Assembly (NCBI GenBank): GCA_019638595.1
Contig: JAHBTJ010000011.1
Span: 186,001 to 250,000 of the forward strand
Length of the DNA: 64,000 nt
Source of the DNA: Chitinophagaceae bacterium
Lineage (GTDB): Bacteria > Bacteroidota > Bacteroidia > Chitinophagales > Chitinophagaceae
Reading direction: 5' to 3'
In this document: positions 5,314-28,253 of the stretch, piece after piece
Layout: every line of letters starts with the position of its first letter
Position numbering within the stretch: position 1 is the first letter of the stretch
Program-made: the position numbers and the translations under genes
The notes under the pieces: model-generated
Databases searched by the model: none
What the model was told of the DNA's origin: nothing
What the model saw: only the letters and a program-made list of their open reading frames with translations

Positions 5314-5428
5314 ATTGTTGTCGAAATATAAAAATGTGAAAAATATTATATCTTATTTTTATCACAATACTATTACTGTAATTAGATTTCATGTGATTTT
5401 TTGTGGGTTAAATTTTTTTTATTAAAAA

Positions 5429-5442
5429 CTTGTATATACAAG
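5429..5442. promoter_or_regulatory. GntR operator, perfect palindrome
   Basis: CTTGTATATACAAG is a perfect 14-bp palindrome ending nine bases before the -7 box of the susC promoter, so a bound repressor would cover the -33 region. The same site occurs in front of the aldolase-dehydrogenase gene (22584-22597), with one-mismatch variants at 5300, 13682 and 21721. Confidence 0.8.
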
Positions 5443-8500: not shown

Positions 8501-8809
8501 ACCAGGGCCGGATACGTTACAAATGTTGATTCGCATTGGGTAGAAGACGGCTCTTTTATCAGGGGGAAAAATATCTTGTTAGGCTATACATTCCCGTCTG
8601 CAACATCCAATGCGCTCAGGATAAGCAGACTGAGAATATTTGCGTCGGTACAAAACGCGTTCTTACTAACAAAGTATAAGAACGGGGATCCGGAAATTAC
8701 GCTTAACACGTTTGGTGCAGAATCCAACAGGGTGTTTGCACAGGGACAAAACTTTCATGCCTATCCAAAGCCTACTATCTGGATGGCGGGTTTAAATGTT
8801 GCTTTTTAA
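5549..8809 (+). CDS. SusC-type TonB-dependent outer-membrane transporter
   Basis: A 1086-residue TonB-linked transporter that would import oligosaccharides across the outer membrane with its SusD partner. A hydrophobic export segment lies at about residues 24-42, then a carboxypeptidase-regulatory-like domain (about 65-140, IKGTVKDEKGDPLPGASITVKGT), a TonB plug (about 150-280, with VIVIGYGTARKTDLTGSV, RVRGFSSIN and VLKDASSTAIYGARGANGVI) and a long beta barrel ending in a C-terminal Phe (GLNVAF). The N-terminus before the first domain is longer than usual and may delay the cleavage site. It is the first gene of the plus-strand PUL, preceded by two GntR operators and a -7 box; susD follows 19 bp after its stop. 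Length and motifs are normal for the family. Confidence 0.95.
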   Translation: MKKMIVCSRGFGKVAGRIKSAKLSFFMTAAFLIIVSWLIAAPTGMKGAAHKEKKSSGNSPFQTSSIEIKGTVKDEKGDPLPGASITVKGTSIGTVADAQGDFSISVPAERSVLLIEHSGYEPFEARIGAQRFFNVSLHIDQRSASMDSVIVIGYGTARKTDLTGSVASVKESTLKERPVASLAQGLAGRVSGVQVNSNSGRPGGRTNIRVRGFSSINTSNNPLFVVDGVAMPVGIQVQATSAIDYINPNDIVSIEILKDASSTAIYGARGANGVILITTKRGRQNAEGRVTYDANFSTNTMGPNRIKMLDAEEFLAVEDLAYANIAKYDPAGWADGKYTSRNPAFSRSDPRMFDANGKPKYNTDWVKETMQSKLSQNHDLGFSGGGPNGSYSVGLGYRDDQGLLLNSYLKRYSARLTVDQQIKKWLRVGATLSYNNQSENIVDQDYQVMRNIAEGLPFQPVKYEDGTWSESQDYPFAEPFWNPVQLLTERKFIVKSQTTVGSIFSNIAFSKDLEMRTVLGANILNQEIDQSTSRGLSPSSNGSASVNNSREEFWSLENYLTYSKSIAEVHALKAMAGLSWQQQRYFGSVVASQQYATDYFLYNNLGAGSLNSGFGSGASSFAFNSYFGRINYTFNDKYLLTVTGRVDGSSRFGENHKYAFFPSAALAWKISDEPFLQNNSVISNLKLRTSYGMTGNSEIPSYTSLSVLSSNYVAILSEGRVGGTGTGRLANPDLKWEKTAQSDVGIELGLFNNRINIEADYYYRKTTDMLLDAPVPTSSGYSTIRKNIGSMENKGFEFTLNTTNIAGRNFTWTTNFNISFNKNKVLSLATPADIFGIGGPGFTNQTNIIRVGAPVGSFWGLVRLGTWNTSEAAEAAKYTSYRNGLTLLPGDIKYLDVNKDYIINDADRMIIGNGYPDAYGGFLNTFRYKAWELVFELQYSYGNDILDQTKHSSEDRQSLANSYRTVLDAWTPDHQNTMIAEVRDTRAGYVTNVDSHWVEDGSFIRGKNILLGYTFPSATSNALRISRLRIFASVQNAFLLTKYKNGDPEITLNTFGAESNRVFAQGQNFHAYPKPTIWMAGLNVAF

Positions 8810-8828
8810 AAAATACAAAAGATATTTT

Positions 8829-10483: not shown

Positions 10484-11662
10484 ATGATGTTATTCAACTT
10501 GCTTGCCCGCAGGCTTACATGGGTAGCCTGTACCGGCCTGCTGATAGCTTCCTGCCATTCATCCGCAGATAAGGATCTGCCTGCTGATACGGAAGAGCTG
10601 CCCAATCTGAAACTTACTTTCAGAAATGATTCCATTATGCGTGACATCAATTTTGAAGGCGATAACTGGCACACCACCTGGGCTGCAGACGGAAATCAAT
10701 ATGTGTTGCAATGTGATGGACAGGGCTATAATACCAAACTTTGGAAGCTGGTAGGATATCCGCCCGGGTACAGGTTTGAAGCGGTAGAATCACACCCCGG
10801 CCCCAAAGAAAAACCACAGGAAAGGTATTATGGTTTTGGGATCCTGGGTATTGGACCTTCCATCTATCATTATTTTTCTACACCGGACAGGTGGTATACC
10901 GATCCCCCCTGGAATTTTATAGGCACAAAAATTATTTACTCGCCTGATACCGGCCGTACATGGAAAAACCAGGACGGAAGTATGCCGGTAGTATTTGAAG
11001 AAACCAATACCAGAAATCATCATAATATGGTTTTCTTCAAAGAGGCTGACAATGTATTTTCGCTGCTTACCATGTTACAAATGGGCAAAGGGTATGAAGA
11101 TAATGTTGATGGATATGTGTATGTATACTCACCGAATGGTGGAACGGAAGGTACGATGAACCAGTTGGTGCTTTTCCGCGTAAACAAGGATAGCCTCCTG
11201 AGCAGAAGCGCATATGAGTTCTTTGTAGAGCCGGGAAAAAGGGGAACTGCGGTATGGTCAAAAAATATAGCAGACAGAAAGCCTGTATATACCTTTCCTG
11301 CAGGATACGTGAACAAGCTGAAGCATCCTTATTCATGGCATCCGAGTGTTGTTTACAATAAAAAGCTTGGATTATATATGATGGCAAACTGGGGAGTGGG
11401 GGTAGACGCTTCAGGTATGTGGTTTACCAAACCCACCTACCTGGGCATATGGATAGCCCGTACTCCATGGGGGCCATGGAAACAGGTTCATGAAGACCTC
11501 CGGTGGTTTCCACCAGGTGGAACTCCTGATGGACAATGCTATCAGCCACAGATAATGCCCGGGTGGATGTCGGATGACGGCAAGTCATTCTGGTTGGCCT
11601 GGACACAATATCCCAAAGGTTATTATTTCCAGGCTCAGCGGGTGGATATTGCAGTGCAGTGA
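10484..11662 (+). CDS. Secreted lipoprotein, DUF4185-like beta-propeller
   Basis: A 392-residue predicted lipoprotein (lipobox LLIASC at about residue 24). The mature part has propeller-like repeats, including an Asp-box, SPDTGRTW, and the WHTTWAADGNQY and WHPSVVYNKKLGLYMMANWG motifs. It is clearly related to the protein at 12498 (shared W-xTW-x-DD/DG start, Asp-box, and a TPWGPWK / HPWGPWTK motif). I read both as DUF4185-like proteins. Members of DUF4185 in Bacteroidota have been described as endo-D-arabinofuranases (GH183); whether this copy is active cannot be told here. It follows susD by 107 bp and probably acts at the cell surface on the imported glycan. Confidence 0.7.
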   Translation: MMLFNLLARRLTWVACTGLLIASCHSSADKDLPADTEELPNLKLTFRNDSIMRDINFEGDNWHTTWAADGNQYVLQCDGQGYNTKLWKLVGYPPGYRFEAVESHPGPKEKPQERYYGFGILGIGPSIYHYFSTPDRWYTDPPWNFIGTKIIYSPDTGRTWKNQDGSMPVVFEETNTRNHHNMVFFKEADNVFSLLTMLQMGKGYEDNVDGYVYVYSPNGGTEGTMNQLVLFRVNKDSLLSRSAYEFFVEPGKRGTAVWSKNIADRKPVYTFPAGYVNKLKHPYSWHPSVVYNKKLGLYMMANWGVGVDASGMWFTKPTYLGIWIARTPWGPWKQVHEDLRWFPPGGTPDGQCYQPQIMPGWMSDDGKSFWLAWTQYPKGYYFQAQRVDIAVQ

Positions 11663-11704
11663 ATAAAAACCGGGTATCACTATTGTATCAGTTAAGCAAT
11701 TCTT

Positions 11705-12466
11705 ATGTTCCGAAGTTTGATCAGTCCGGCAATATTTATTTTTACTTTATTGGTTTCAGCAAGCTCCTTCGCGCAATCCAATCCGCAAATGGTGTTTGTT
11801 AAAGGAGGAGACTTTGAAATGGGGGATAATCATGCAGCCGGCGATCCGGATGAAAGGCCCCTTCACAAAGTAAGGCTGAGCGATTATTATATCGCTAAAA
11901 CAGAAGTTACCGTAAAAGAATGGAGGCTGTATTGTAAGGAGAAGGGCATTGATATGCCTCCTGAGCCCAAATGGGGCTGGAGAGACGATCATCCCATTGT
12001 AAGTGTTACGTGGGAAGAAGCAAATGATTATTGTAAATGGATCTCGGGAAAAACAGGTAAGCCGTATCGGCTTCCTACCGAAGCGGAATGGGAATACGCA
12101 GCAAGGGGAGGGGTGAAAGGGAAAAATTATTTGTATAGCGGAAGCGACAAAGCGGGGGATGTGGCATGGATCATGGAAAACAGTCAATCCTCTGTTCACC
12201 CGGTAGCGCAAAAAAAGCCAAATGAGCTGGGACTTTTCGATATGTCCGGAAATGCCTGGGAATGGTGCAGCGATCATCTTGATAATTATATTGACGAAGA
12301 CCAGGTAAATCCCGCCGGAAGCACAACCAGTGTGTTTGTTGTTCGCAGGGGCGGGAGCTGGGATGATCATGCGTATCGTGCGCGGAGCACTTATCGCATC
12401 GGTAATTCACCCCGGCGAAGTTACCATACGCTTGGCTTTCGTATAGCGATGTCATTTAAAAATTAG
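11705..12466 (+). CDS. Secreted formylglycine-generating-enzyme-like (SUMF1) protein
   Basis: A 253-residue protein with a Sec signal peptide (about 1-23, ending SFAQ) and one FGE-sulfatase domain (QMVFVKGGDFEMGDN, IAKTEVTVKEWRLYC, RLPTEAEWEYAARGG, FDMSGNAWEWCSDH, RRGGSWDD, LGFRIA). True formylglycine-generating enzymes carry a catalytic Cys pair near the C-terminus (GFRC-type ending); here the motif reads GFRIA, and no sulfatase gene is in the window, so sulfatase maturation is unlikely. The fold is often re-used for binding or other oxidations. It lies between the two propeller lipoproteins, spaced 42 and 31 bp, and is probably co-transcribed with them. Confidence 0.82.
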   Translation: MFRSLISPAIFIFTLLVSASSFAQSNPQMVFVKGGDFEMGDNHAAGDPDERPLHKVRLSDYYIAKTEVTVKEWRLYCKEKGIDMPPEPKWGWRDDHPIVSVTWEEANDYCKWISGKTGKPYRLPTEAEWEYAARGGVKGKNYLYSGSDKAGDVAWIMENSQSSVHPVAQKKPNELGLFDMSGNAWEWCSDHLDNYIDEDQVNPAGSTTSVFVVRRGGSWDDHAYRARSTYRIGNSPRRSYHTLGFRIAMSFKN

Positions 12467-12497
12467 CATACACATTTATTTCCTAAAAATAATTCTA

Positions 12498-13661
12498 ATG
12501 AAACTCAGGCACATACTTTTTTTGGGAGCATTGATTGTTGTTGTTATATCATGCTCACAATCCGCACCCGGATCGCTCCCTATTGTAGATATAAGGTTTG
12601 ATTCGAGCTATTCCCAGATCGAAAACAGCAGGGGAGATGAATGGGCTCCCACCTGGGGCAGGGATGACGTGCTATATACAGGCAATGATGATGGCTCCAG
12701 CTTTGGCGGCGTGCCTGCAGGCAATATAGCTTTTGGGAAGCTGGAAGGGGATGATCCTTATGCACTTACCGGTACTACTGTGAACGGTATGGAAGAGTAT
12801 GGAAAGGAAGGTGAAAAAGCAGCCGACAGCGCCAGTTGGAAAACGATGAATTCATATAGTGTGGATGGTGTTTTATACATGTTTGTTACCCGTTGCCTGT
12901 ATCCCGAACAATCGGGGGATACGAAGAACCGGCACATTTTCAGAAGTTCAAGTATTATTAAATCAAATGATAATGGTAAAACATGGACAAGAACGGCGCA
13001 GGAAAACTATGCCAATCCTATGTTTCCCGGAAAACGCTTTGGAGCACCGTATTTTGTCTGGTACGGAAAAGACGGGGAAGCCTCGGTGGATAATGCAGAT
13101 AAGTATGTATACGCTGTATCCAACAACGGACATTTTGAAAGCGGCGATAATTATATAATCGGCCGGGTATTAAAAAACAGGTTACCCGATCTGAATGCTG
13201 CTGACTGGCAGTTTTATGCCGGGGGAGACGGGATGGCAGATGCCGGTTGGACGAATGATATGGAGACAGCAGCGCCGGTCATAACAGATACCAACAACTG
13301 TAGTATGACCGGCATGACCTATATACCCGGGTTAAAGCGATATATAATGGTCGTATGGCATTACACAACCTATAATTTGCGTAAAGACCCACGTACTATC
13401 AATGAATTTTACGAGGCCCCGCATCCCTGGGGACCATGGACCAAATTCAAAACGCTTGACACTAAGGAACTGGGATGGTATGTTCCTGTTATAGGGCAGC
13501 GCTTTCAGTCGGATGCTGACAATGGAGAGGTGAAATGTTTTTTATATCCTACCGGGAATTATCAGAACAGAGAATTATACAGGCTGAATTACATACCTGT
13601 TACTATTGCCACACATACGCTGGAGCACAGCATTCCGGACTATACAGGCTGGAAAAAATAG
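12498..13661 (+). CDS. Secreted lipoprotein, DUF4185-like beta-propeller (paralogue)
   Basis: A 387-residue lipoprotein (lipobox VVVISC at about residue 19). Characteristic stretches are WAPTWGRDDVLYTGNDDGSS near the N-terminus, an Asp-box SNDNGKTW, and APHPWGPWTKF near the C-terminus. It is a diverged paralogue of the protein at 10484 and is probably a glycan-cleaving or glycan-binding five-bladed propeller of the DUF4185 type. It is the last gene of the first transcription unit; a new operator and promoter follow within 62 bp. Confidence 0.7.
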   Translation: MKLRHILFLGALIVVVISCSQSAPGSLPIVDIRFDSSYSQIENSRGDEWAPTWGRDDVLYTGNDDGSSFGGVPAGNIAFGKLEGDDPYALTGTTVNGMEEYGKEGEKAADSASWKTMNSYSVDGVLYMFVTRCLYPEQSGDTKNRHIFRSSSIIKSNDNGKTWTRTAQENYANPMFPGKRFGAPYFVWYGKDGEASVDNADKYVYAVSNNGHFESGDNYIIGRVLKNRLPDLNAADWQFYAGGDGMADAGWTNDMETAAPVITDTNNCSMTGMTYIPGLKRYIMVVWHYTTYNLRKDPRTINEFYEAPHPWGPWTKFKTLDTKELGWYVPVIGQRFQSDADNGEVKCFLYPTGNYQNRELYRLNYIPVTIATHTLEHSIPDYTGWKK

Positions 13662-13681: not shown

Positions 13682-13695
13682 CATGTATATACAAG
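13682..13695. promoter_or_regulatory. GntR operator before the E1/E2 operon
   Basis: CATGTATATACAAG is the same one-mismatch variant as at 5300. It ends 16 bases upstream of a -7 box (13712-13719), so it sits over the -33 region of the operon promoter. Confidence 0.75.
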
Positions 13696-13723: not shown

Positions 13724-14683
13724 ATGAAAATCGGGAAGGAAAGAATTTTATCAATGTATGAACAACTGTTCCTGTTGCGCAATTATGAAGACAGGATCTA
13801 TTATATGTTCCTGGAGGGGATCATGCCCGGCACGATCCACCAGAGCCAGGGGCAGGAAGCCTGTGCCGTTGGAGTGCTGTTTGATGTGCGCAAAGAGGAT
13901 TATATGACATCTACGCACAGACCTGCAGGACATTGTCTCGCAAAGGGAGTATCATTAGAATCTATGATGTGCGAAATGTTTGCTAAAGCCAATGGCTGCT
14001 GCAAGGGGAAGGGCGGGGCAATGCATACGGGCGATATAAGTGTGGGAGCCATTCCCGCAGTAGCTATCACTGCCGGCGGTATGCCGGTAGCGATCGGTGC
14101 AGGATTGTCCTGTAAAATGCGTAAAACGGATAATGTGGTGATCTGCTTTTTTGGGGATGGAGCCAGTAACGAAGGCGCTTTTCATGAATCCATGAATGCG
14201 GCTGCTATATGGAACCTGCCTGTAGTTTTTGTGTGTGAAAATAATTTGTATGGTGCCTCTACTCATATTAACCAGGTAATTAAAATAAAAGACCTGGCTG
14301 AAAGGGCTGCCGCTTACGGTATGCCGGGATATGTTGCAGACGGAAATGATGTGCTGGCAGTAAACAAAGCTGCCAACGAAGCTATTGACCGGGCGAGAAA
14401 AGGAAAAGGCCCGACGCTCCTGGAGCTGAAGACCTATAGGCGTTGCGGGCATTCGCGCAATGACGCCTGCGGGTACAGGGATAAGCAGGAAGAAAAAGAA
14501 TGGTTCGAGAAGGACCCCGTGGCCCGTTGTAAAAATTACATTTTGCAGCAGCAACTGGCAGCTCCCGTTGAATTGGAAGCAATAGAAAAAAAAGTATTAC
14601 AACAGATTGACGATGCCGTGGCCTTCGCAAAGGCAAGCCCCTCGCCGGAGCCGCAGGATGCGCTCCTGCATGTATATGCTTAA
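13724..14683 (+). CDS. Thiamine-diphosphate E1 alpha subunit, 2-oxoacid/acetoin dehydrogenase type
   Basis: A 319-residue E1-alpha subunit that with E1-beta would decarboxylate a 2-oxoacid or cleave an alpha-hydroxyketone on thiamine diphosphate and pass the acyl group to lipoyl-E2. The ThDP/Mg motif is complete: GDGASNE (144-150) to ENN (172-174). MTSTHRPAGHCLAKG and YRRCGHSRNDACGYR are also typical. Its short length and sequence place it near the AcoA/PDH two-subunit class. It is the first gene of a six-gene operon: E1-beta starts 27 bp on, then an aldolase, E2, a cupin isomerase and a sugar kinase. The pathway context suggests a sugar-derived substrate rather than pyruvate from central metabolism. 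Confidence 0.9.
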   Translation: MKIGKERILSMYEQLFLLRNYEDRIYYMFLEGIMPGTIHQSQGQEACAVGVLFDVRKEDYMTSTHRPAGHCLAKGVSLESMMCEMFAKANGCCKGKGGAMHTGDISVGAIPAVAITAGGMPVAIGAGLSCKMRKTDNVVICFFGDGASNEGAFHESMNAAAIWNLPVVFVCENNLYGASTHINQVIKIKDLAERAAAYGMPGYVADGNDVLAVNKAANEAIDRARKGKGPTLLELKTYRRCGHSRNDACGYRDKQEEKEWFEKDPVARCKNYILQQQLAAPVELEAIEKKVLQQIDDAVAFAKASPSPEPQDALLHVYA

Positions 14684-14710
14684 AAATTATCAATAGAGAA
14701 CAAAGACAAT

Positions 14711-15730
14711 ATGGCTACATTATCAATTGCTGAAGCATTAAGGGAAGCGATACGGGAAGAAATGCGAAGAGATGAACGGGTATTTTGCCTGGGTGAGGAC
14801 ATAGATATAGAAGGTGGTTTTGGGGGGGCATTTACGGTTACATTGGGCTTATCTAAAGAATTTGGGCATGAACGTATACTGGATACGCCGATATCCGAAA
14901 TTATGATTGCCGGCGCCGCAGTGGGAGCTGCCATGACGGGAATGATCCCCATAGCCGACGTTCAGTATGGAGATTTCCTTTTTTGTATGATGGATCAGTT
15001 GGCGAATAATGCGGCAAAAATGACTTATATGTCGGGTGGAACAGTGAAGGTGCCCATGGTAATGCGTGCGCCGGTGGGCGCTACTACAAGAGGAGCCCAG
15101 CACGCTCAAAGCCTTGAGGGCTTTTTTACGCACATCCCCGGCCTTAAAATAATTTGCCCTTCCACTGCTTATGATGCAAAGGGGTTACTGAAAACCGCCA
15201 TACGCGATAATAACCCGGTAGTAGTATTTGAGCACAAGCTGTTATACGGCAGTAAAGGCAACAGGGCCGAAAAAGCGGCATTGAGCCCCGTAGGGGAAGT
15301 GCCTGATGAAGAATACCTGATCCCCTTTGGGGAAGGTGTGATTCGCAGAGAGGGAAAAGACATTACCATCGTTGCTAATTTATTGATGGTGTACAGGGCA
15401 ATGGAGGCGGCCGATATATTGGAAAAAGAGGGGATCAGCGTGGAAGTGATCGATCCCAGAACATTGGTTCCTTTTGACTATGAGCTGGTCATCCATTCCA
15501 TTCGCAAAACATCCCGGCTGATGATTGTTGAGGAAGATACCAAAAGAAACGGCTGGGGTGCGGAAGTGGCGGCGCAGATTGCGGAAGATGCACTGTATTA
15601 CCTTGATGCGCCGATCGTAAGAGTGGCCGGTTATGATGTTCCCGTACCTTTTGCTCCTGTAATGGAAAATTATGTAGTGCCATCCGCTTCGCGGATAGCA
15701 GAGGCCGCAAGAAAATTAATGAAATCCTGA
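14711..15730 (+). CDS. Thiamine-diphosphate E1 beta subunit, 2-oxoacid/acetoin dehydrogenase type
   Basis: A 339-residue transketolase-like E1-beta subunit, partner of the gene upstream. Visible motifs are SIAEALREAIREEMRRD, VFCLGEDI, RILDTPISE, VQYGDFLF, GATTRGAQHAQSLEGFFTHIPG (with the conserved His of this family) and the C-terminal transketolase domain VIDPRTLVPFDYELV / VEEDTKRNGWGAEVAAQI. Length is normal for AcoB/PdhB. It is separated by only 22 bp from the following aldolase gene, so the aldolase is embedded inside the complex genes. Confidence 0.92.
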   Translation: MATLSIAEALREAIREEMRRDERVFCLGEDIDIEGGFGGAFTVTLGLSKEFGHERILDTPISEIMIAGAAVGAAMTGMIPIADVQYGDFLFCMMDQLANNAAKMTYMSGGTVKVPMVMRAPVGATTRGAQHAQSLEGFFTHIPGLKIICPSTAYDAKGLLKTAIRDNNPVVVFEHKLLYGSKGNRAEKAALSPVGEVPDEEYLIPFGEGVIRREGKDITIVANLLMVYRAMEAADILEKEGISVEVIDPRTLVPFDYELVIHSIRKTSRLMIVEEDTKRNGWGAEVAAQIAEDALYYLDAPIVRVAGYDVPVPFAPVMENYVVPSASRIAEAARKLMKS

Positions 15731-15752
15731 AAACTTTCAACCCGGGTTTAAT

Positions 15753-16652
15753 ATGGCTTTAGTATCAATGAACACTTTAATGCAAAAAGCGCTGGCAGGC
15801 AGGTACGCGGTTGGATATTTTGAAGCGTGGAATATGGAATCGATACTGGCTGTAACAGATGCGGCAGAGAAAACCCAATCGCCTGTAATAATAGGCTTTG
15901 GCGGTCAATTCATAGGAAGTAAAAAAAGAACCATTACCGAAAATATTCACCATTACGGACAATTGGGAAAAGCGATAGCCGAAACGGTAAACGTACCTGT
16001 TGCCCTGCTTTTAAATGAAGCGCATGAGGTGGACATGCTGTTGAAGGGAATGGATTCCGGATTTAATGCAGTTATGTTTGAAGGGCATGATATTTCCATG
16101 GAGGAATTCATTCGCATTAATCGGCAGCTTGTAAAGATTGCAAAAGGTCGCGATGTTTGCGTAGAAGCTGAAGTAGGTAAATTACCGGATGCTGATATAG
16201 CCAGTGATAGTATCAGTGACGGTAAAAAAACAGATCCCGATGAAGCTGCCTTTTTTGTAAAGCAAACAGGAATAGATGCACTGGCTGTTTCTGTAGGCAA
16301 TGTTCATTTGCTTGAAACAGGAAAAGCTGCTATTGATTTTGCATTGATAAAGGAGTTGAGAAAGAAAATAAATATCCCCCTGGTCTTGCATGGCGGCACA
16401 GGAGTGGCGGAAGAGGAGTTAAAGGAGGCTGTAGCGCTGGGAATGTGTAAAGTAAATGTAGGTACATCCCTTAAACGGGCTTATCTCAACTCCATTCAGG
16501 AATACCTGAATAACAATAATGTTTCGAAGATGGATCCGCACAATGTAATAGGGAGAGGAGGAAACATGGATATGTTGTGTGCTGCGCGGGAAGCGGTTGC
16601 TAAAGAAGTGGAGCGTTTTATTAAAATAATAGGCAGCGAAAATAAAGCCTGA
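15753..16652 (+). CDS. Atypical class II ketose-bisphosphate aldolase
   Basis: A 299-residue TIM-barrel protein of the zinc class II aldolase family (FbaA/GatY/KbaY/IolJ). Retained features are NVGTS phosphate binding (235-239), the VEAEVGKL motif (137-144), His185 (GNVHLL) and His213 (VLHGGTG). The family's LDH motif, which holds the catalytic Asp and one zinc His, reads LNE here (Asn88, Glu89), and the MIDGS motif reads MFEGH. It may therefore use a different metal site or substrate, or catalyse a different reaction. It lies between E1-beta and E2 of a dehydrogenase complex, 22 and 15 bp from its neighbours, indicating a joint pathway: it would split a phosphorylated ketose produced by the isomerase and kinase downstream. 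Confidence 0.82.
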   Translation: MALVSMNTLMQKALAGRYAVGYFEAWNMESILAVTDAAEKTQSPVIIGFGGQFIGSKKRTITENIHHYGQLGKAIAETVNVPVALLLNEAHEVDMLLKGMDSGFNAVMFEGHDISMEEFIRINRQLVKIAKGRDVCVEAEVGKLPDADIASDSISDGKKTDPDEAAFFVKQTGIDALAVSVGNVHLLETGKAAIDFALIKELRKKINIPLVLHGGTGVAEEELKEAVALGMCKVNVGTSLKRAYLNSIQEYLNNNNVSKMDPHNVIGRGGNMDMLCAAREAVAKEVERFIKIIGSENKA

Positions 16653-16667
16653 TTAACCTGAGGTAAC

Positions 16668-17921
16668 ATGCTGAATAAAATTTTGATGCCATCCGGTGGG
16701 CAAACCACCGATGAAATGATGATACTTAACTGGAACAAGCAGGTAGGCGATCCTGTTAAAAGAGGAGATATCCTGTTTGAAATAGAAACCGACAAGGCGA
16801 TACTCACGGTGGAAAGTTTTGCTGAAGGAACATTGCTTGAAATAAAATATCCTGCCGGGAGAATGGTGAAAGTAGGGGAAGTTGTGGCGTTGATTGGCGA
16901 CAAAGAAGATATAGCGTTGAACAAGGATAAACCCGGGAAAGAAGATCGCCATGTTGGAGCAATGACAGGTAAAGCGGATGTTTTGTACAGTACTGAAGTA
17001 CAGGCAGGCGCTCCCCGGGCAGTATCATCTGCGCCCGGCGCTTTCATTGCAGCTTCACCGCTTGCCAGGAAAATGGCTGCCGCCGAGCATGTTTCTCTAA
17101 AAGACATTTTTGAAACAACCGGGAATAAAGTGATCAAGAAGGCGGATGTGGAGGTGTTCATTTCGGAAAAACGCAGGAAAAACCTGCCGGATATTACATC
17201 TTCTGTTTCACATCCGGTTGAACAGCCCGATGATTTTACGTTGGTAAATGTATTACCTGTACGAAAGACGATAGCCCGGCGAATGGTAGAAAGTCTTACG
17301 CTGGCGCCTCATTATGTTATATCTGTTGATATAGACATGACTGCAGCGATCCGGCTGCGGGAAACATTCAACAGGAATATAGAGCAGTCAGGATACCGTA
17401 TATCTTATAACGATATCCTCATGAAAGTAGTATCATCCGCCATACGGGAGTTTCCTGTCATTAACAGTACTTACCTTGGCGACCAGGTGAAGCTCTTCAA
17501 AAATGTGAATATTGGTTTGGCGGTTGCTACAGATTCGGGTATAATAGTACCCGTTGTAAAAGAGGTAAATAAAAAAAGTATCTCAGAGATCGCGCAGCAG
17601 AATGCTGCTAATATAGCAAAAGTCCGTTCCGGTAAGCTTCAGGAAGCTGACAGGCAGGGTGGAACAATAACCATATCCAATCTTGGTATGTTTGGGATAA
17701 ACCAGTTTACCGCAATCATTAATCAACCCGAAAGCTGCATTCTTGCAGTAGGAGCTATTCAGCGAAAGCCGGTAGTGGATGGCGAAAGCGAAAATATTAT
17801 TGTAAAGCCGGTTATGACGGTCACGGCATCTTTTGATCATCGCATGATAGATGGCGCTGTAGGCGCTCCTTTTTTACAAAAAGTAAAGCAGTTGTTAGAA
17901 GAACCCGGTTTATTACTATAG
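16668..17921 (+). CDS. Lipoyl E2 acyltransferase of a 2-oxoacid/acetoin dehydrogenase complex
   Basis: A 417-residue dihydrolipoamide acyltransferase. One lipoyl domain (1-78, lipoyl-Lys43 in ETDKAILTVES), a peripheral subunit-binding domain (about 126-166, FIAASPLARKMAAAEHVSL) and a CAT-like catalytic domain (about 185-417) ending in DHRMIDG with catalytic His391. It would accept the acyl group from E1 and transfer it to CoA. The third component, dihydrolipoyl dehydrogenase, is not encoded in this window, so the complex must borrow the housekeeping E3. It is the fourth gene of the operon. Confidence 0.92.
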   Translation: MLNKILMPSGGQTTDEMMILNWNKQVGDPVKRGDILFEIETDKAILTVESFAEGTLLEIKYPAGRMVKVGEVVALIGDKEDIALNKDKPGKEDRHVGAMTGKADVLYSTEVQAGAPRAVSSAPGAFIAASPLARKMAAAEHVSLKDIFETTGNKVIKKADVEVFISEKRRKNLPDITSSVSHPVEQPDDFTLVNVLPVRKTIARRMVESLTLAPHYVISVDIDMTAAIRLRETFNRNIEQSGYRISYNDILMKVVSSAIREFPVINSTYLGDQVKLFKNVNIGLAVATDSGIIVPVVKEVNKKSISEIAQQNAANIAKVRSGKLQEADRQGGTITISNLGMFGINQFTAIINQPESCILAVGAIQRKPVVDGESENIIVKPVMTVTASFDHRMIDGAVGAPFLQKVKQLLEEPGLLL

Positions 17922-17971
17922 GTATACTGAGAGGGAGCAACGAATGTTTTGTAGAATTTTAAAAATACGAT

Positions 17972-18517
17972 ATGCTTACCAGGGATGAAATAGCGGCAGC
18001 AAGACAGCAGGCGGTTGAATACTTTGCTGCTGCCGGCATTGTTGTAACAGAAAAAGAAAAGCAGGAAATTGAAATTGCGGATTTTGGTTTGGGCGACCTG
18101 TACCGCATGGGGCTGGAAGTGCTGGTATACATCAATACGGAAAGAGTTTGTGCAAAAGAGCTTGTAATGTTCCCGGGACAAACCTGCCCGGAACATATTC
18201 ATCCTACTATCAATGGTGTTCCCGGAAAAGAAGAAACCTTCAGATGCCGTTGGGGAAAAGTACATTTATATGTAGACGGAGCTGCTGAAGGAAATAAATA
18301 TCTGGACGGACTGGGCGAACATGCAGCCTATCTTCAATGTGCAAAAGAGATAGTGCTTATGCCCGGTGATCAGTATACTATTATGCCCGATACCAATCAT
18401 TGGTTCAGGGCCGGTGAAGAAGGAGCTGTAGTTTCAGAATTTTCTACCCGCAGCACAGACGAACTGGATCGCTTCACGGATCCGGGAATCAATCGCTTTA
18501 CAGTTATTTCGGACTAA
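17972..18517 (+). CDS. Cupin sugar isomerase, D-lyxose isomerase family
   Basis: A 181-residue cupin of the D-lyxose ketol-isomerase family (Pfam Lyx_isomer), which interconverts D-lyxose/D-xylulose and in some members D-mannose/D-fructose. Metal ligands are in place: His75 and His77 (CPEHIHP), Glu87 or Glu88, and His143 (DTNHWFRAG). It should be cytoplasmic and manganese dependent. Fed by the alpha-mannosidases of the locus, D-mannose to D-fructose is the simplest role; D-lyxose or a related aldose is also possible. It is followed ten bases later by a PfkB kinase, the expected next step for the ketose. Confidence 0.85.
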   Translation: MLTRDEIAAARQQAVEYFAAAGIVVTEKEKQEIEIADFGLGDLYRMGLEVLVYINTERVCAKELVMFPGQTCPEHIHPTINGVPGKEETFRCRWGKVHLYVDGAAEGNKYLDGLGEHAAYLQCAKEIVLMPGDQYTIMPDTNHWFRAGEEGAVVSEFSTRSTDELDRFTDPGINRFTVISD

Positions 18518-18526
18518 CTTCAGCTC

Positions 18527-19480
18527 ATGACAACAGAGAGAACTGCCATCGTATGTACAGGAATATTGTGCGCGGATATTCTTGGTAAGACCATCAATGA
18601 TTTGCCTGCAAAAGGAAAGCTGAGCCTTGCTGACGAAATTTCAATGCAGGTGGGAGGATGCGCCGCTAATGTAGCCATCGGAATGGCCAAATTAGGATTT
18701 CCGCCCGCTATTATCGGCAGGATAGGACAGGATGGATTAGGAAACTTTATCCGGGGGACGCTTCTTGATATGCATGTGAATATGGAAGGATTGAAAATGG
18801 ACGGGGAGTATTCCACAGCAGCTTCTATGGTTATGATAGACGCTTCGGGGGAGCGTACCATTATACATGCAATGGGAGCAAATGCCGCATTTTGCTTTAA
18901 TGATATACAGCTTGATATAGTAAAGCAGGCAAAGCTATTGCTGATTGCAGGCACCTTTCTCATGCCTTCGTTTGATGGGGAGGGTACGCAGATGCTGTTA
19001 CGCTATGCAAACGAGAACGGGGTGATCTGCTGTATGGATACAGCCTGGGATGCTACGGGAGAGTGGCTTCATAAAATAGAGCCGGCACTGCAATACCTGG
19101 ATTGGTTTATGCCCAGCTATGATGAGGCGGTAGAACTTTCCGGCAAAAAGATACCATCCCGGATAGCACAGTTCTTTTTAGAAAGAGGAGTTAAAAATGT
19201 GGTGATAAAACTGGGAAATGAAGGTTGTTTTGTGCAAGAAGGAGACAACCGTGGTTATCTGGTTCCTTCCTATAAAAATGTTGTTGCTGTTGATAGCTCC
19301 GGAGCCGGAGATTCATTTTGCGCAGGATTTATAACCGGTTTGAACCAGGGTTGGCCCGTACGCGACTGTGCAGTATTTGCCAATGCAGTGGGCGCTCATT
19401 GTGTAATGAAAATAGGTACAACAGCCGGCATTACATCCATGCAGGAAATACTTGATTTTATTAAAAGCGCTGCAAAGTAA
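18527..19480 (+). CDS. PfkB-family carbohydrate kinase
   Basis: A 317-residue ribokinase/fructokinase-family kinase. The N-terminal substrate-binding GG (VGGCAANVAIGMAKLG, 42-57) and the C-terminal catalytic DSSGAGDSF (Asp262) are intact, the latter with Ser in place of the common Thr. It would phosphorylate the ketose made by the upstream isomerase before aldol cleavage. The exact position phosphorylated is not predictable. It is the last gene of the operon, ending 15 bases before the convergent unknown gene. Confidence 0.9.
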   Translation: MTTERTAIVCTGILCADILGKTINDLPAKGKLSLADEISMQVGGCAANVAIGMAKLGFPPAIIGRIGQDGLGNFIRGTLLDMHVNMEGLKMDGEYSTAASMVMIDASGERTIIHAMGANAAFCFNDIQLDIVKQAKLLLIAGTFLMPSFDGEGTQMLLRYANENGVICCMDTAWDATGEWLHKIEPALQYLDWFMPSYDEAVELSGKKIPSRIAQFFLERGVKNVVIKLGNEGCFVQEGDNRGYLVPSYKNVVAVDSSGAGDSFCAGFITGLNQGWPVRDCAVFANAVGAHCVMKIGTTAGITSMQEILDFIKSAAK

Positions 19481-19494
19481 CACTTCGGTTACGC

Positions 19495-21600
19495 TTACTC
19501 CGCAAATACAATTTTCAGATCGGCTGGTTTATCCAGGCTTGCTTTTAACCATAAGGTTTTACTGTCCCAGGCATAATCGCTTTGTGATAAGATTTTCCCG
19601 TTCAATGTTATCGATGTAATATTCGTATGGAGGGTTGATATTTCAAACACCGGGTTGATCGTCCACCGGACGGGTCTGATCTGAATGTTCAGCGTAGCAT
19701 CTTCTGCAATTACCTGCAATGCCTTTCTTTCTGATGAATACGTTTCGGGTCTTGCGCGTCCTCCCCGGATGTGAAGTACCGGAGGTTCCGCATAGCTGAT
19801 AGCAGTATGTAATAATTGGTCTTCGGATGCGTCTGTCATACCTATCAGCCAGGTCCAGGTCTCCAGCTTCATTTTTTTAACTGCTCCCAAAGCGTCCCGG
19901 GTTTCAACTATATTGCTTCTTATCGGGTCGGGACGTTTCGCTCCCCATGTAACAAGGGAATTATGGGAAGGACCTGCCCAAAGCGATTCGTTGATAGAGC
20001 GTCCCGTATTGAAACCCTGGTTCAGCGGCCAATGCCCACCCCAGTAAGCAGGTGTAACAGTTACACCTTTATCGTAAAATGGAGCAAATGCAAAAGGTTT
20101 TTGGGTAAGCAATGGATTGAAACTAAAGGCTGACATTGGTTCATCCCGGTGTATTTTCATGGAATAGATGACCGGTTCAGGCAGATTTTTCCATAAAGTA
20201 TCTTTTTCCGGCAGGGATACCCACCGCTTTTCTCCATTGTTAAAAGATATCAGCCGGAGAGGATTGTCAGGCATAATATCCAGAGGAACAGAAGCCTGTG
20301 AAGCCAGGAGAATGAATTCCGCCAGTTCATATTCAGCTTCGGGAATACTGGTAAGCGTAAGTACTCTTGTACCGGTGCCGTCAGGATAAAAATAATAATC
20401 TTCCCGGGCAAAATCTCCGTTCACTTTATAGTTGAAATCGCAGCTCTGGTAACTCCAGCGAACATGGATCCTGGAGGGAGTGGATTCGATCACTTCCACT
20501 TTGCCGTAACGTAATTCCTTGTCCATTAATGGCTCCGGGCAATCTGTAAATCCATCATTGGGTGAAATTCTTTCGGCCCATTCATAACTCAGCCCTGTAT
20601 TGTATTTGCTGGCCCATATGGGAATATAACTGGCGCCCCTCCAGAATACCCAGCGTGAGCCGTTAGGCAGGCAAACGATATAATCAGATTGGTCATCTTT
20701 CCATGCTTTATTATACATCAACGGTTCATTCCTGCCATTTACAATATTGAGTATGGGCACATCGTAGCGCAGTTTTGTCTCAACAACGCCAAACGCAGGC
20801 GTTGGGATACGCTTACTGATCATTACCTGCACCTCTTTTTTCCATACCTGCATCCCGGCGTTATCAGCCAATGTTATGTGTAACACATCTTTTTCCCCCT
20901 GTTTACTTACGGGCGACGTAAATGTTACAGTTTGCTTTTGACCCGATGGAAGGGTAAGGTCCAGGAAAGTTTTGTCGTCAGGAGATGATGTAAACCAGGC
21001 AGTCAGGATAAACTTTCTTGTATCCTTTTGCCGGTTAATGGCTGCAAACCGGATAAGCGAAGTTTCTCCCTGTTCCAGCAATAACCAGTCGGCGGGTACT
21101 AAGATGGTTCCCATATCTACCGGGTTGATGATTGTTGCAGGCTGTACAACAGCTTCGCATTCAAACATTTCGAAGGGAACCTTTCTCCTTCCAAGGTGTA
21201 TACGTTTTCCGCGGTCGTCTTTATAAGTAAGCATTACCTCATCAACATCCAATGAAATATTTTGCCTTGCCGCTTCATTCTTTTTATTGGAAAATGGAAT
21301 AATGAGCCGGCGGACTTCCCTGCCTTTATGGAGGCAAATCATTTCTACTTTCAATAAATTACCTTTGCCTTCTGACCGGCTGATGACTACATCGAGTGAG
21401 TTGCCTACCCGGTCAAGCCCGAATGGGGGCCTCCAGGGATGTGATTTTTCAATAGTCCATTGAATATTTTCAACTGCTGGATGACCAGTTGCAGAAGCTT
21501 CTGTAACCACCCCCCTGCAAAAAGGGAAAGTGAGCAGAAGCAAGAAAACAGATTGTAAACCTGGCCGCGAAAAAACGGGCAGCATACGCAAGCATATCAT
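19495..21600 (-). CDS. Large secreted protein of unknown function
   Basis: A protein of 701 residues (or 696 from the ATG at 21585) with an N-terminal hydrophobic signal (about 8-30). I do not recognise the family. The sequence is rich in beta-strand-like stretches and aromatic residues, with motifs such as WRPPFGLDRVGN, YEWAERISPNDGFTDCPEPL, PAYWGGHWPLNQGFNTGR and SLWAGPSHNSLVTWG, which suggest a carbohydrate-active or carbohydrate-binding beta-rich enzyme, but no catalytic motif can be named. It is transcribed divergently from gntR and shares the operator at 21721-21734, so it belongs to the same regulon. A -7 box on the minus strand is at 21708-21715. Confidence 0.75.
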   Translation of the reverse strand: MICLRMLPVFSRPGLQSVFLLLLTFPFCRGVVTEASATGHPAVENIQWTIEKSHPWRPPFGLDRVGNSLDVVISRSEGKGNLLKVEMICLHKGREVRRLIIPFSNKKNEAARQNISLDVDEVMLTYKDDRGKRIHLGRRKVPFEMFECEAVVQPATIINPVDMGTILVPADWLLLEQGETSLIRFAAINRQKDTRKFILTAWFTSSPDDKTFLDLTLPSGQKQTVTFTSPVSKQGEKDVLHITLADNAGMQVWKKEVQVMISKRIPTPAFGVVETKLRYDVPILNIVNGRNEPLMYNKAWKDDQSDYIVCLPNGSRWVFWRGASYIPIWASKYNTGLSYEWAERISPNDGFTDCPEPLMDKELRYGKVEVIESTPSRIHVRWSYQSCDFNYKVNGDFAREDYYFYPDGTGTRVLTLTSIPEAEYELAEFILLASQASVPLDIMPDNPLRLISFNNGEKRWVSLPEKDTLWKNLPEPVIYSMKIHRDEPMSAFSFNPLLTQKPFAFAPFYDKGVTVTPAYWGGHWPLNQGFNTGRSINESLWAGPSHNSLVTWGAKRPDPIRSNIVETRDALGAVKKMKLETWTWLIGMTDASEDQLLHTAISYAEPPVLHIRGGRARPETYSSERKALQVIAEDATLNIQIRPVRWTINPVFEISTLHTNITSITLNGKILSQSDYAWDSKTLWLKASLDKPADLKIVFAE

Positions 21601-21720: not shown

Positions 21721-21734
21721 CTTGTATATACAAC
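21721..21734. promoter_or_regulatory. GntR operator in the gntR divergent region
   Basis: CTTGTATATACAAC differs from the perfect palindrome by one base. It lies between the divergent unknown gene and gntR and could control both, giving autoregulation. Confidence 0.75.
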
Positions 21735-21813: not shown

Positions 21814-22530
21814 ATGCAAAAAGAAGAGACGACTCCATTGTATAAAAAACTGATTGAAGATTTAAAGAAGCTGATGGAGGAAGGAAAATTTAAGCAGGGC
21901 GATCTTTTGCCTTCGGAAAATGAGTTGTGTAAATCGTACAACACTACACGCCCGACAGTACGCCAGGCATTGGCAGGGCTTACTAACATGGGGTATATTA
22001 CCCGCCATCATGGTAAGGGTAGTATTGTTGCAGAGCCACGGCGGGGATTGGGTATCCTTTCCGTAAGCGGGGTTACTGCAGGGGTAGGAGATCTTAACCT
22101 CAAAACCGTGATACTGGAAAAACCGGTAAAACGGAACTGGCCCCCGGAATTGATGAAAGACCTCAATTATGCTGAGCAGATAGCGGGCTGCATCTATTTT
22201 ACAAGGGTCAGGATCATCAATAACGCGCCCATATTATATGAAGAAACCTTTCTTACTGATATCAATCTTTTAAGGTTTACTTCCAGGAACCTGGACAATC
22301 GTTCTTTCTTAAAAATATTAAGTGAATATTACCAGGTGGAAGTAACAGGAGGCGAGCAAAAAATATGGGCGGTTGCGGCCGATAAAAGTATTGCCCGGGT
22401 GCTTAAAATATCGGCCGGTCATCCGATAGTACATATGAAGCGGAAACTGAAAACCAATGTAAAGAACTTGAATATTTACTCCTGGTTATATTGCAATACG
22501 GAGAATTATTACCTGGATGACAGGTTTTAA
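21814..22530 (+). CDS. GntR/HutC-family transcriptional repressor (UTRA domain)
   Basis: A 238-residue regulator. The N-terminal winged helix-turn-helix (about 8-75) has the GntR signature LPSENELCKSYNTTRPTVRQALAGLTNMGYITRHHGKGS broken over residues 32-70; the C-terminal part (about 85-236) is a UTRA-type effector domain (FTRVRIINNAPILYEETFL, IWAVAADKSIARVL, GHPIVHMKR). It would bind a sugar phosphate or related inducer and release DNA. It is the only local DNA-binding protein of the main locus. The operator CTTGTATATACAAG resembles the boxes of Bacillus AraR, which also uses a GntR-type DNA-binding domain. A terminator follows 18 bases after its stop. Confidence 0.92.
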   Translation: MQKEETTPLYKKLIEDLKKLMEEGKFKQGDLLPSENELCKSYNTTRPTVRQALAGLTNMGYITRHHGKGSIVAEPRRGLGILSVSGVTAGVGDLNLKTVILEKPVKRNWPPELMKDLNYAEQIAGCIYFTRVRIINNAPILYEETFLTDINLLRFTSRNLDNRSFLKILSEYYQVEVTGGEQKIWAVAADKSIARVLKISAGHPIVHMKRKLKTNVKNLNIYSWLYCNTENYYLDDRF

Positions 22531-22583: not shown

Positions 22584-22597
22584 CTTGTATATACAAG
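22584..22597. promoter_or_regulatory. GntR operator, perfect palindrome
   Basis: CTTGTATATACAAG, identical to the site at 5429. It ends 17 bases before the -7 box at 22615-22622 and thus overlaps the -33 region of the aldolase-dehydrogenase operon. Confidence 0.8.
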
Positions 22598-22614: not shown

Positions 22615-22622
22615 TATATTTG
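22615..22622 (+). promoter_or_regulatory. -7 box of the aldolase-dehydrogenase operon
   Basis: TATATTTG, identical to the susC -7 box. Its position rules out a translation start at TTG 22620 and supports ATG 22656. Confidence 0.6.
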
Positions 22623-22655
22623 TATTTCTTAATACTGAAATATAAATATAATGCG

Positions 22656-24605
22656 ATGACGATTGCAGAAAAAGATCAGCTTATTGAAGATAGGGTACAG
22701 AGCTCCCGGATGCTTGGCCGTAATAAATCATTGGTGTTACATGGAGGAGGTAATACTTCGGTAAAAGTAAGAGAGGCGAATCTTGTGGGTGAAGAAGAGG
22801 ATATCCTTTACGTGAAAGGCAGTGGATGGGACCTGGAAACAATTACCCGGGAAGGATTTTCACCCGTGCGGATCAACCACCTGAAAAAGCTGGCCAGGTT
22901 GCCGGAGCTGACTGATTCCCAGATGTTGAATGAACTGGTGACACATCAAACGAAAGCCTCCGCACCGGTTCCGTCCGTAGAAGCGATTTTACATGCTATT
23001 ATCCCTTTTCGCTTTGTAGATCATACCCATGCTGATGCGGTAGTGGCTATTTCAAATTCTGTTAACGGGGATGAAATATTGAAGGAGATATATGGCGACA
23101 CGGTGATATATGTTCCATATATTATGCCGGGGTTTGATTTGTCCAGGCTTTGTGCCACCATACTGGAAAAAGAACTGACTCCTGAAAAACGGGGGATCAT
23201 TCTTCTTCATCACGGTGTATTTACTTATGGAGAGACGGCTACAGAATCGTACGATAGAATGATTGAATTAGTGGGCAAGGCAGAAACCTATCTCGCTGAA
23301 AAGAAAACCCCGGGAAGTACGGTAAAACAATACAAACTGCCCGGGGATTTCACTTCCGGGCTGTGCGCGCTCAGGAAAAAGATAGCTGATGTGGCAGGAT
23401 TTCCTGTAATTATCAAAAGAGCGGACGATGCTAAAAGTATGGACTTCTGCAATCGTTCCGATGTAGCTATTATATCCCGGCAGGGGCCTGCAACGCCGGA
23501 CCATGTTATTCGTACCAAAAGATTGCCGCTTGTTGGCAGGGATATAGACGCTTTTGCACGGGAATACAGCAATTATTTTGCTGAGTACGAGCCATTGGCT
23601 AAGGATAGAAAAACGATGCTGGATCCGGCTCCGCGGGTGGTACTGGATCCGGTGCTGGGCGTTTGCGCTATCGGAAAAACGGTTAAAGACGCTACTATAG
23701 TAGCTGATATATACGATCATACGATTGATATTATACTTGCGGCAAATGCCATTGGCGGTTATGTGGCCCTGCCGGCCAGGGATATTTTTGATGTTGAATA
23801 CTGGGAACTGGAGCAGGCAAAGCTTAAGAAAGCAGGCAACCTGCCTCCTTTTACCGGCGAAATAGCGCTTGTAACAGGAGCCGCATCCGGCATTGGTAAA
23901 GCATGCGCTCTTTCTTTGCTTGCCAGAGGGGCCGTAGTAGTGGGGGTAGATATTAACCCGGCTGTTAAAGACATTTCTTCAGATCCGTCGTATTATGGAA
24001 TGGTGGTGGATCTGGCTTCTGAAGAGGGGTTGATCTCCACGATACAACAAACCGTGTTTTTATTCGGGGGGTTAGACATGCTTGTTTTGAATGCCGGGAT
24101 ATTTCCTGAAAGCAGCAAGGTATCAGAGCTGGCGTATGAAAAGTGGCAACGTGTTTTACAGGTTAACCTGGATGTTAACTTCCGCTTGCTGCAGGAAGCA
24201 TATCCCTGTCTTAAGCTGGCTCCCAAAGGAGGACGGGTAGTAATAGTGGGGTCTAAAAATGTTGCGGCGCCCGGGCCGGGCGCCGCTGCCTATTCTGTTT
24301 CAAAGGCTGCGTTGAACCAGCTAGCCAGGGTAACGGCTATGGAGTGGGGAAAAGACAATATCAGGATCAATTCAGTACATCCCAACGCTGTTTTTGATAC
24401 AGGAATATGGACGGAAGAAGTGCTTCATTCTCGTGCCATGCATTACGGGTTGACCATAGAGGAATATAAAAAGAATAACATACTCAAAACGGAAATAAGC
24501 AGCCGCGATGTAAGTGAGCTGGTAGCGGAGTTATGCAGTCATGTATTTGCCAAAACAACCGGCGCCCAGATACCTGTGGATGGTGGAAATGACAGGGTTA
24601 TTTAG
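22656..24605 (+). CDS. Bifunctional class II (AraD-like) aldolase / short-chain dehydrogenase
   Basis: A fusion of about 649 residues. The N-terminal half is a zinc AraD/RhaD-type aldolase (HTHADAVVAISNS and HHGVFTYGETATESYDR provide metal His residues); the C-terminal half (from about 405) is an SDR with LVTGAASGIGKA, NAGIFPES and the catalytic YSVSK. Such fusions are annotated as rhamnulose-1-phosphate aldolase / lactaldehyde dehydrogenase: they split a ketose 1-phosphate into DHAP and an aldehyde and oxidise the aldehyde. The length fits the family. ATG 22656 was chosen because the promoter box overlaps the upstream TTG. No rhamnose isomerase or FGGY kinase is nearby, so the substrate may not be rhamnose. 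It is first in an eight-gene operon. Confidence 0.88.
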   Translation: MTIAEKDQLIEDRVQSSRMLGRNKSLVLHGGGNTSVKVREANLVGEEEDILYVKGSGWDLETITREGFSPVRINHLKKLARLPELTDSQMLNELVTHQTKASAPVPSVEAILHAIIPFRFVDHTHADAVVAISNSVNGDEILKEIYGDTVIYVPYIMPGFDLSRLCATILEKELTPEKRGIILLHHGVFTYGETATESYDRMIELVGKAETYLAEKKTPGSTVKQYKLPGDFTSGLCALRKKIADVAGFPVIIKRADDAKSMDFCNRSDVAIISRQGPATPDHVIRTKRLPLVGRDIDAFAREYSNYFAEYEPLAKDRKTMLDPAPRVVLDPVLGVCAIGKTVKDATIVADIYDHTIDIILAANAIGGYVALPARDIFDVEYWELEQAKLKKAGNLPPFTGEIALVTGAASGIGKACALSLLARGAVVVGVDINPAVKDISSDPSYYGMVVDLASEEGLISTIQQTVFLFGGLDMLVLNAGIFPESSKVSELAYEKWQRVLQVNLDVNFRLLQEAYPCLKLAPKGGRVVIVGSKNVAAPGPGAAAYSVSKAALNQLARVTAMEWGKDNIRINSVHPNAVFDTGIWTEEVLHSRAMHYGLTIEEYKKNNILKTEISSRDVSELVAELCSHVFAKTTGAQIPVDGGNDRVI

Positions 24606-24650
24606 CCGGTTATTCGTAGAGGTCCGTTTAATTTGCAAAAGCCATATGTA

Positions 24651-28243: not shown

Positions 28244-28253
28244 AACAGGAATA

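Follow-up and report, generated by a model that had tools for sequence, protein, structure and literature searches.

Pyruvate dehydrogenase (PDH)- and acetoin-dehydrogenase-type complexes combine a thiamine pyrophosphate (TPP)-dependent E1 of alpha and beta chains with a lipoyl E2, and the same parts recur in a six-gene operon on a 64,000-nucleotide stretch of DNA from a Chitinophagaceae bacterium (assembly GCA_019638595.1, contig JAHBTJ010000011.1, positions 186,001 to 250,000; hereafter the window, numbered from its first letter), for which the best-scoring models are those of PDH E1 and E2. Unlike those complexes, the window E1/E2 is grouped with an isomerase, a kinase and a homologue of class II aldolases, its operon holds no E3 gene, and its E1 falls in a clade of its own marked by STHRP, P[AS][IV]AI and insertions in E1-beta; on the acetoin side the comparison is one of family type. 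The Escherichia coli ydj cluster supplies the nearest solved relatives of two further members, YdjH for the kinase and YdjI for the aldolase homologue, but YdjI retains the Asp-His pair, and the window adds E1/E2 and a cupin isomerase. SqiA, a class II sulfofructose-phosphate aldolase, shares the fold (SqiA rows at TM 0.83-0.88 on the query), whereas the clade of the window protein differs from SqiA and from the fructose-bisphosphate (FBP) and tagatose-bisphosphate aldolases in having Asn-Glu (NE) for Asp-His. On Hyphomicrobiales plasmids, related E1-alpha, E1-beta and E2 genes likewise stand beside a sugar-phosphate enzyme, DRL, but there the E1 is of another branch (48 and 47% identity), DRL occupies the place of the NE enzyme and the transporters are others. 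The cupin matches the D-lyxose/D-mannose isomerases 7nzo and 2y0o over nearly its full length, apparently with no striking difference. No matching description came up in the searches made of open-licence PubMed Central; GudL (excerpt of PMC11775122), tried as an analogue, was rejected as DapA-like.

Proposed route and the operon

We propose, with a probability of roughly one half, that the operon belongs to a GntR-controlled module that would carry an aldose of D-manno or D-lyxo configuration through a ketose phosphate and an alpha-ketol to an acyl-CoA by way of a dedicated E1/E2. The proposal is built on which genes are present and in what conserved order, on the operators they share, on an E1 that forms a clade apart, on the NE substitutions and on the co-occurrence of E1 and NE genes in the genomes checked; the sugar, the order of the steps, the bond cleaved, the acyl-CoA, the use of a housekeeping E3 and the identity of the NE product with the E1 substrate are what we infer around these observations. 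An alpha-mannoside-like glycan would be imported by SusC/SusD and its aldose released by GH38 and GH92 enzymes; following inner-membrane uptake by a porter of the MFS type, the cupin would convert the aldose to a ketose and the PfkB kinase would phosphorylate it, two assignments that follow from family membership. The NE-type aldolase homologue may then convert the ketose phosphate to an alpha-ketol (or alpha-dicarbonyl), whose oxidative C-C cleavage by the dedicated E1/E2 would yield an acyl-CoA and an aldehyde or triose fragment, with the lipoamide reoxidised by the single housekeeping E3. If E1/E2 does take a ketose-derived alpha-ketol to acyl-CoA, this would be a bacterial sugar route bypassing pyruvate, even though the family models against which its key parts score best are named "pyruvate dehydrogenase" and "fructose-bisphosphate aldolase"; the Asn-Glu signature would be a simple marker for finding and testing the NE/E1 pair.

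The six open reading frames (ORFs) lie where the original prediction had placed them, with the aldolase-like gene between E1-beta and E2 (Table 1), and are separated, in order, by 27, 22, 15, 50 and 9 bp. As in complexes of this type, E1 carries GDG..NN, which we take to be the TPP motif, and E2 carries what are presumably the lipoyl-lysine motif, ETDKA, and the E2 motif of the form DHRxxDG, DHRMIDG. The family calls made earlier for the isomerase and the kinase hold as well. The Pfam Lyx_isomer match of the cupin is weak (28.3 bits), and a phmmer comparison with solved structures returns 7nzo, a D-lyxose/D-mannose family isomerase (E 1.8e-62), and 2y0o (E 6.7e-55); the protein has HIH at 75 and ETFR at 88, which we assume to be its cupin metal motifs. 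The nearest solved relative of the kinase is YdjH (3h49, E 1.3e-49), and its best model score is for an IolC domain (157.0 vs a cut-off of 300). Terminator-like sites are no commoner in the window than in shuffles (10 vs 10.0), and three on the plus strand fall within operon genes (17853 in that of E2, 18025 in that of the cupin and 19297 in that of PfkB), so that the scan speaks neither for nor against internal termination.

An aldolase homologue with an Asn-Glu pair

The product of the third gene belongs to the class II aldolases both by family (PF01116, 226 bits vs a cut-off of 25.5; nearest solved relative YdjI, 6ofu, E 6.3e-43) and by fold, since a confident AlphaFold model (pLDDT 88.7) is matched by Foldseek to the class II aldolase fold; it departs from them in its catalytic residues. 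In characterised class II aldolases we take the Asp of an Asp-His pair to be catalytic and the adjacent His to be a metal ligand, a view that the title of 3gb6 (a Giardia D83A mutant with FBP bound) fits. The pair is kept in 10 of 10 ordinary, cupin-linked rows of our comparison (L021, L024, L026, L029, L038, L042, L045, L046, L047 and L048) and is Asn-Glu in ten rows from four phyla: the window, L013, L015, L017, L018, L053 (an Arthrobacter plasmid), L076, L112, L113 and L114. The N-terminal "FN" position is Glu in all nine NE rows that reach it and Asn in nine of the ten ordinary rows. The NE rows also read GN.H for GT.H, with a second metal His lost in L114, and L113 is without the Thr; across the six rows of A1, His185, His213, Asn235 and Thr238 do not vary. 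As both the Asp and the metal His of the pair are missing from the NE protein, plain zinc aldol cleavage appears doubtful, and the very label "aldolase" should be treated as an assumption. Since the phosphate-site residues survive in most rows, the enzyme probably acts on a ketose phosphate, without the usual base. The aldol cleavage of the original prediction is doubtful on these grounds, and the regulon holds two further aldolase-family genes, RhaD-type and DeoC/LsrF-type, that keep their family motifs.

A plasmid search with the window protein gave no match at 1e-40; the Arthrobacter NE protein found, besides its own record, nine more with E about 1e-21. Sugar genes of other kinds stand near some NE genes: a fucose/arabinose-isomerase-like protein (read by eye) beside those of L112 and L114, and in L017 genes for a Fucose_iso_C protein and for an FGGY kinase that follow the NE gene and cupin.

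The E1 clade and its apparent coupling to the NE gene

Eight E1_dh matches were found in the genome. The window E1-alpha scores under both PDH-alpha equivalog cut-offs (328.2 of 393.85 and 264.5 of 411.35), whereas another E1-alpha, on contig C34, passes (455.1 vs 393.85); because of this, the window E1/E2, as judged by these scores, is neither the sole nor the housekeeping dehydrogenase, and the objection that these genes might encode the organism's only pyruvate or branched-chain dehydrogenase falls away. The earlier label "acetoin-type" is putative and goes back to these scores below the PDH cut-offs. A single E3 in the genome scores above cut-off.

Six loci make up the E1 clade: the window, L013 (Pollutibacter soli), L015 (a Bacteroidales metagenome-assembled genome, MAG), L097 (acidobacterium G872), L053 (Arthrobacter) and L100 (spirochaete G679). 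They share the two E1-alpha motifs and, as far as each reaches, the E1-beta insertions, and E1-beta is 93% identical between the window and Pollutibacter. The clade has support of 95/91 in the E1-alpha tree, with five rows (window, Pollutibacter, Bacteroidales MAG, G872 and Arthrobacter), and of 100/99 in the E1-beta tree, with seven rows, one place doubled, including G679; the E1-alpha tree was built without two of 21 rows (L100_3651 and L092_1, the same place, with a masked stretch).

A member of this clade occurs in six of the seven NE genomes checked, across four phyla, a set that leaves G983, G1041 and G1048, also NE-positive, outside. At strict thresholds both partners are rare. The NE protein is found at E<=1e-80 in 1/345 Bacteroidota, 2/297 Acidobacteriota and 4/169 genomes of the phylum of G679; E1-alpha at E<=1e-90 occurs in 1/395 Bacteroidota, which is the genome itself, and E1-beta at E<=1e-105 in 1/297 Acidobacteriota, namely G872, one of the two NE genomes there. 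Distant members of the clade could be missed, because score thresholds only approximate it. E1 and NE genes are neighbours in Bacteroidota and in Arthrobacter, whose plasmid has an NE homologue (cut by the record start), an E1 alpha/beta fusion, a lipoyl protein and an FGGY kinase side by side. Given this joint occurrence and this rarity, the NE enzyme and E1/E2 look coupled.

Some leads to the chemistry of such an E1/E2 are indirect and come by analogy. AceE, the PDH E1 of E. coli, is of a different E1 architecture. Mutants in aceE allow production of 1-deoxyxylulose 5-phosphate (DXP), according to an excerpt of PMC3424233, and a Nitratireductor plasmid has related E1/E2 genes beside DRL (PF21135), of a family known for DXP reductoisomerase activity (excerpt of PMC3847144); both would lead towards ketose-phosphate chemistry. 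A further lead is a RuBisCO-like ORF in the spirochaete G679 (L100:2393-3241; PF00016/PF02788, partial), which looks cut short and lies shortly upstream of the lipoyl-E1-alpha fusion of the E1 clade. The two plasmid operons with DRL ahead of E1-alpha/E1-beta/E2 (L050:8513-13268 and L051:8598-14771, the latter with an E3 as well; DRL_cat by Pfam in L050 and by annotation only in L051) may themselves serve catabolism via 1-deoxyxylulose phosphate.

Regulon and candidate glycan

The palindrome CTTGTATATACAAG has five sites with at most one mismatch in the window (Table 1). Allowing up to three mismatches raises the number to 11, vs 3.4 (standard deviation 1.89) in shuffles, none of 100 of which reaches 11; in the 7.06-Mb genome the exact 12-bp core has six occurrences, three of them in the window, and its backwards control has two. 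As the palindrome precedes each unit, SusC/SusD, the six-gene operon, gntR and the GH38/GH92 operon probably form one regulon, in keeping with the operator that had been predicted within a polysaccharide utilization locus: it stands before four transcription units, and SusC/SusD, GH38 and two GH92 genes are present. The GntR/UTRA regulator is the likely reader of the palindrome, although its binding, like the co-transcription of the genes, is predicted from sequence. In Pollutibacter (L013), CATGTATATACAAG again lies 42 bp upstream of the E1-alpha ORF and another site lies upstream of RhaD-SDR; in the Bacteroidales MAG (L015) the palindrome was not found at <=2 mismatches.

Table 1. Coordinates of the operon, operators and further members of the regulon in the window
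Feature	Position	Strand	Basis or remark
E1-alpha	13724-14683	+	PF00676 (E1_dh); clade motifs STHRP and P[AS][IV]AI
E1-beta	14711-15730	+	PF02779/PF02780 (Transket_pyr + Transketolase_C); 3-aa and 12-aa insertions
NE-type class II aldolase homologue	15753-16652	+	PF01116 (F_bP_aldolase); Asn88-Glu89 replacing Asp-His; Glu replacing "FN" Asn
E2	16668-17921	+	Biotin_lipoyl + 2-oxoacid_dh; lipoyl domain ETDKA; acyltransferase domain DHRMIDG; E3-binding domain under cut-off
Cupin, D-lyxose/D-mannose-type ketol isomerase	17972-18517	+	Lyx_isomer; match to 7nzo
PfkB kinase, YdjH-like	18527-19480	+	PfkB family; AGDSF motif
Operators (two) ahead of SusC	5300..5442 (sites 5300, 5429)	.	Palindrome scan
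GntR-type operator CATGTATATACAAG	13682..13695	.	First base 42 bp ahead of E1-alpha start
Operator CTTGTATATACAAC	21721..21734	.	Between p701 and gntR
Operator CTTGTATATACAAG	22584..22597	.	Ahead of operon 2 (RhaD-SDR)
SusC/SusD pair	5549..10376	+	Family scan
Two DUF4185-type proteins (10484, 12498) and FGE-sulfatase-domain protein (11705)	10484..13661	+	Family scan; downstream of SusD
p701, 701-aa protein without assigned family	19495..21600	-	Divergent from gntR across operator at 21721
GntR/UTRA regulator	21814..22530	+	Family scan
Bifunctional class II (RhaD-type) aldolase/short-chain dehydrogenase (RhaD-SDR)	22620..24605	+	NF006196, 1012.2 bits vs cut-off 831
GH38	24633..27314	+	PF01074; motif HTHWEGAVF
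DeoC/LsrF-type class I aldolase or thiolase	27362..28243	+	ADIIK motif
Gfo/Idh/MocA dehydrogenase	28200..29381	+	Family scan
GH92, more divergent copy	29446..31671	+	Family scan
GH92	31690..33981	+	Near solved 2wvx/2wzs (1011 bits)
Sugar-porter MFS	33991..35385	+	TIGR00879, 367.3 vs cut-off 237.8
DUF4432-like protein	35404..36441	+	18.5 bits, under Pfam cut-off 32.5

The family of the cupin, together with a GH92 very close to the solved 2wvx (1011 bits), would point to a mannose-like residue as the sugar. The GH38 is sound as a family member (PF01074, 145.1 bits vs a cut-off of 25, with three further GH38 domains) and, in place of HxD..W, which we take to be the usual metal-site motif, has HTHWEGAVF. 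The THWEGAVF form is seen in the window, L015 and L018, and the contig with E1/E2 of G872 (L097) also carries a GH38 with HTHWEGAVF; this form, which recurs close to E1/E2 genes of both Bacteroidota and Acidobacteriota, marks a GH38 subgroup and hints at a non-standard mannoside. Because the Bacillota loci L034, L042, L045 and L046 have a GH38 with the usual motif, their GH38 link is of another kind. On another contig of G872, GH38-like fragments (L076:6715-7110 and 14094-14396) lie near the NE-aldolase, cupin and PfkB genes, the long GH38 ORF being on L097.

The two DUF4185-type proteins, of a family that we take to be GH183, score 48.6 bits (over) and 38.8 bits (under) vs a cut-off of 39.5. 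A modified form of mannose, or a pentose, would also be compatible with them and with the atypical GH38 motif. The second GH92 has a GNQP motif, which was rejected as the mark of a mannose-phosphate enzyme, since the solved 2wzs has it too. Routes for D-apiose, inositol, levoglucosan and sulfoquinovose were set aside, with no recognised enzyme set for them in the regulon scans; the Gfo/Idh protein reaches 84.7 of 650 against the levoglucosan dehydrogenase model.

Alternative explanations

Several observations weigh against the proposed module. Besides the three NE genomes outside the E1-clade count, acidobacterium G680 (L018) has an NE gene, a cupin and a GH38, but on the same contig a different fused E1 with E2 and E3 (by eye); G679 and G872 have their E1-clade and NE genes on separate contigs, and in G679 a non-clade E1-alpha (9.6e-94) outscored the masked clade member (2.7e-83). 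The 12-aa E1-beta insertion is also present in L098, outside the clade, and the E3-binding domain of the window E2 reaches 20.6 bits vs the Pfam cut-off of 23.7. The NE protein retains the aldolase fold and, in the window, two of three metal His. Across 38 sources built around the cupin (see below), E2 is found in 6 and E1 in 4, with PfkB in 26. In the 20 kb examined of Pollutibacter no GH38 or GH92 was found, so that, in the part that is visible, the glycosidases do not always accompany the operon; and to our knowledge ordinary D-mannose would need no such route.

As a tentative suggestion, for which the odds are well short of even, the NE proteins may be a new enzyme family built on the fold of class II aldolases and catalysing a rearrangement or elimination at a ketose phosphate (giving, e.g., a 1-deoxy-ketose or 2,3-dicarbonyl) in place of cleavage; the paired E1/E2 would then cleave alpha-ketols oxidatively, with a chemistry like that of DXP synthase or phosphoketolase but leading into CoA, and carbon would reach acyl-CoA without pyruvate. 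The scheme of the original prediction, which we regard as rather doubtful, is that a working retro-aldolase, with Glu replacing a metal His, splits a ketose-1-phosphate into dihydroxyacetone phosphate and an aldehyde, and that E1/E2 oxidises the aldehyde or a derived 2-oxo fragment. It can draw on the strong fold match, on nearest solved relatives that include YdjI as well as FBP and sulfofructose-phosphate aldolases, on the four residues invariant in A1, and on the ydj pair, YdjH and YdjI, as the closest solved structures for kinase and aldolase homologue; it must, however, contend with Asn at the Asp position in all 10 rows of the clade, with the Glu at the "FN" position in nine of nine, with the losses in L113 and L114, with a D83A mutant that was deposited, by its title, with FBP bound, and with two other aldolase-family genes, motifs included, in the same regulon. 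That E1/E2 is instead a second PDH, co-regulated with a sugar pathway to carry extra pyruvate to acetyl-CoA while the rest makes up a normal mannose or lyxose route, seems unlikely. E1-beta does exceed the broad PDH E1-beta subfamily cut-off (362.7 vs 321) and the nearest solved E1-alpha is a mitochondrial PDH, but the window E1-alpha falls below both equivalog cut-offs, the genome has another E1-alpha that passes, and a flux-boosting PDH would leave the company of NE enzyme and E1 clade in six of seven genomes unexplained. Least probable of all, in our estimate, is a D-arabinan or lipoarabinomannan-like target whose pentose (D-arabinose or D-lyxose) would send glycolaldehyde or a pentulose phosphate to E1. 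The cupin family is named for D-lyxose, mannosidases would suit a mannan part, and DUF4185, represented twice in the regulon, includes endo-D-arabinanases (excerpt of PMC10115798); yet the abundant isomerase of the D. gadei D-arabinan locus is, in the same excerpt, a predicted fucose isomerase, none of the 21 regulon proteins scanned matches DUF2961/GH172 at E<=0.001, and relatives of the window DUF4185 proteins were not found in 20 kb of L015.

Gene order in other genomes

A scan of genome contigs with the cupin gave 36 loci, spread over Bacteroidota, Bacillota, Spirochaetes, Acidobacteria, Kosmotogales, Aminicenantes and other records. Among these, the complete six-gene order, for which a search had been suggested, is present in Pollutibacter soli (L013) and the Bacteroidales MAG (L015). 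For gene content, 38 sources were counted, namely the 36 loci, L010 (which has a contig of the same length as L013 and seems to duplicate it, both being counted) and the window; none of the stretches around the cupin exceeds about 20 kb and many fall short of that, ORFs in which over 20 residues were masked were left out, and the cupin, missed by the choice of ORFs in L042 and L047, was called in 36 of the 38. PfkB (26) is accordingly the commonest partner and the aldolase homologue (15) the next, followed by Gfo/Idh (11), DUF4432 (10), DeoC (8) and GH38 (8), and by these counts E1/E2 is a minority addition. Typical loci of Paenibacillaceae consist of DeoC, Gfo/Idh, PfkB, cupin, DUF4432 and a DeoR regulator, and the DeoC and Gfo/Idh of this set are also found in the second operon of the window. 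L014, a 3-kb contig of genome G676, holds E2, cupin and PfkB; neither G676 nor G678 (L016) yielded an NE match at 1e-20 or an E1-alpha match at 1e-30.

Other neighbours deserve mention. The protein p701 has no Pfam or NCBIfam match at E<=0.001 and an AlphaFold model too poor to use (pLDDT 37.7); it is 53% identical to its counterpart in Pollutibacter and is possibly a new glycan-active enzyme. A PSCyt/PSD1 cytochrome-type protein and a downstream DUF1501 protein (41602-45949) have no near operator match. Adjoining the six-gene operon of the Bacteroidales MAG (L015:15544-18601) are an MtlD-like dehydrogenase, a second PfkB and an isomerase for D-lyxose/D-mannose that differs in type from the cupin (NF051472, 287.6 vs 350 bits).

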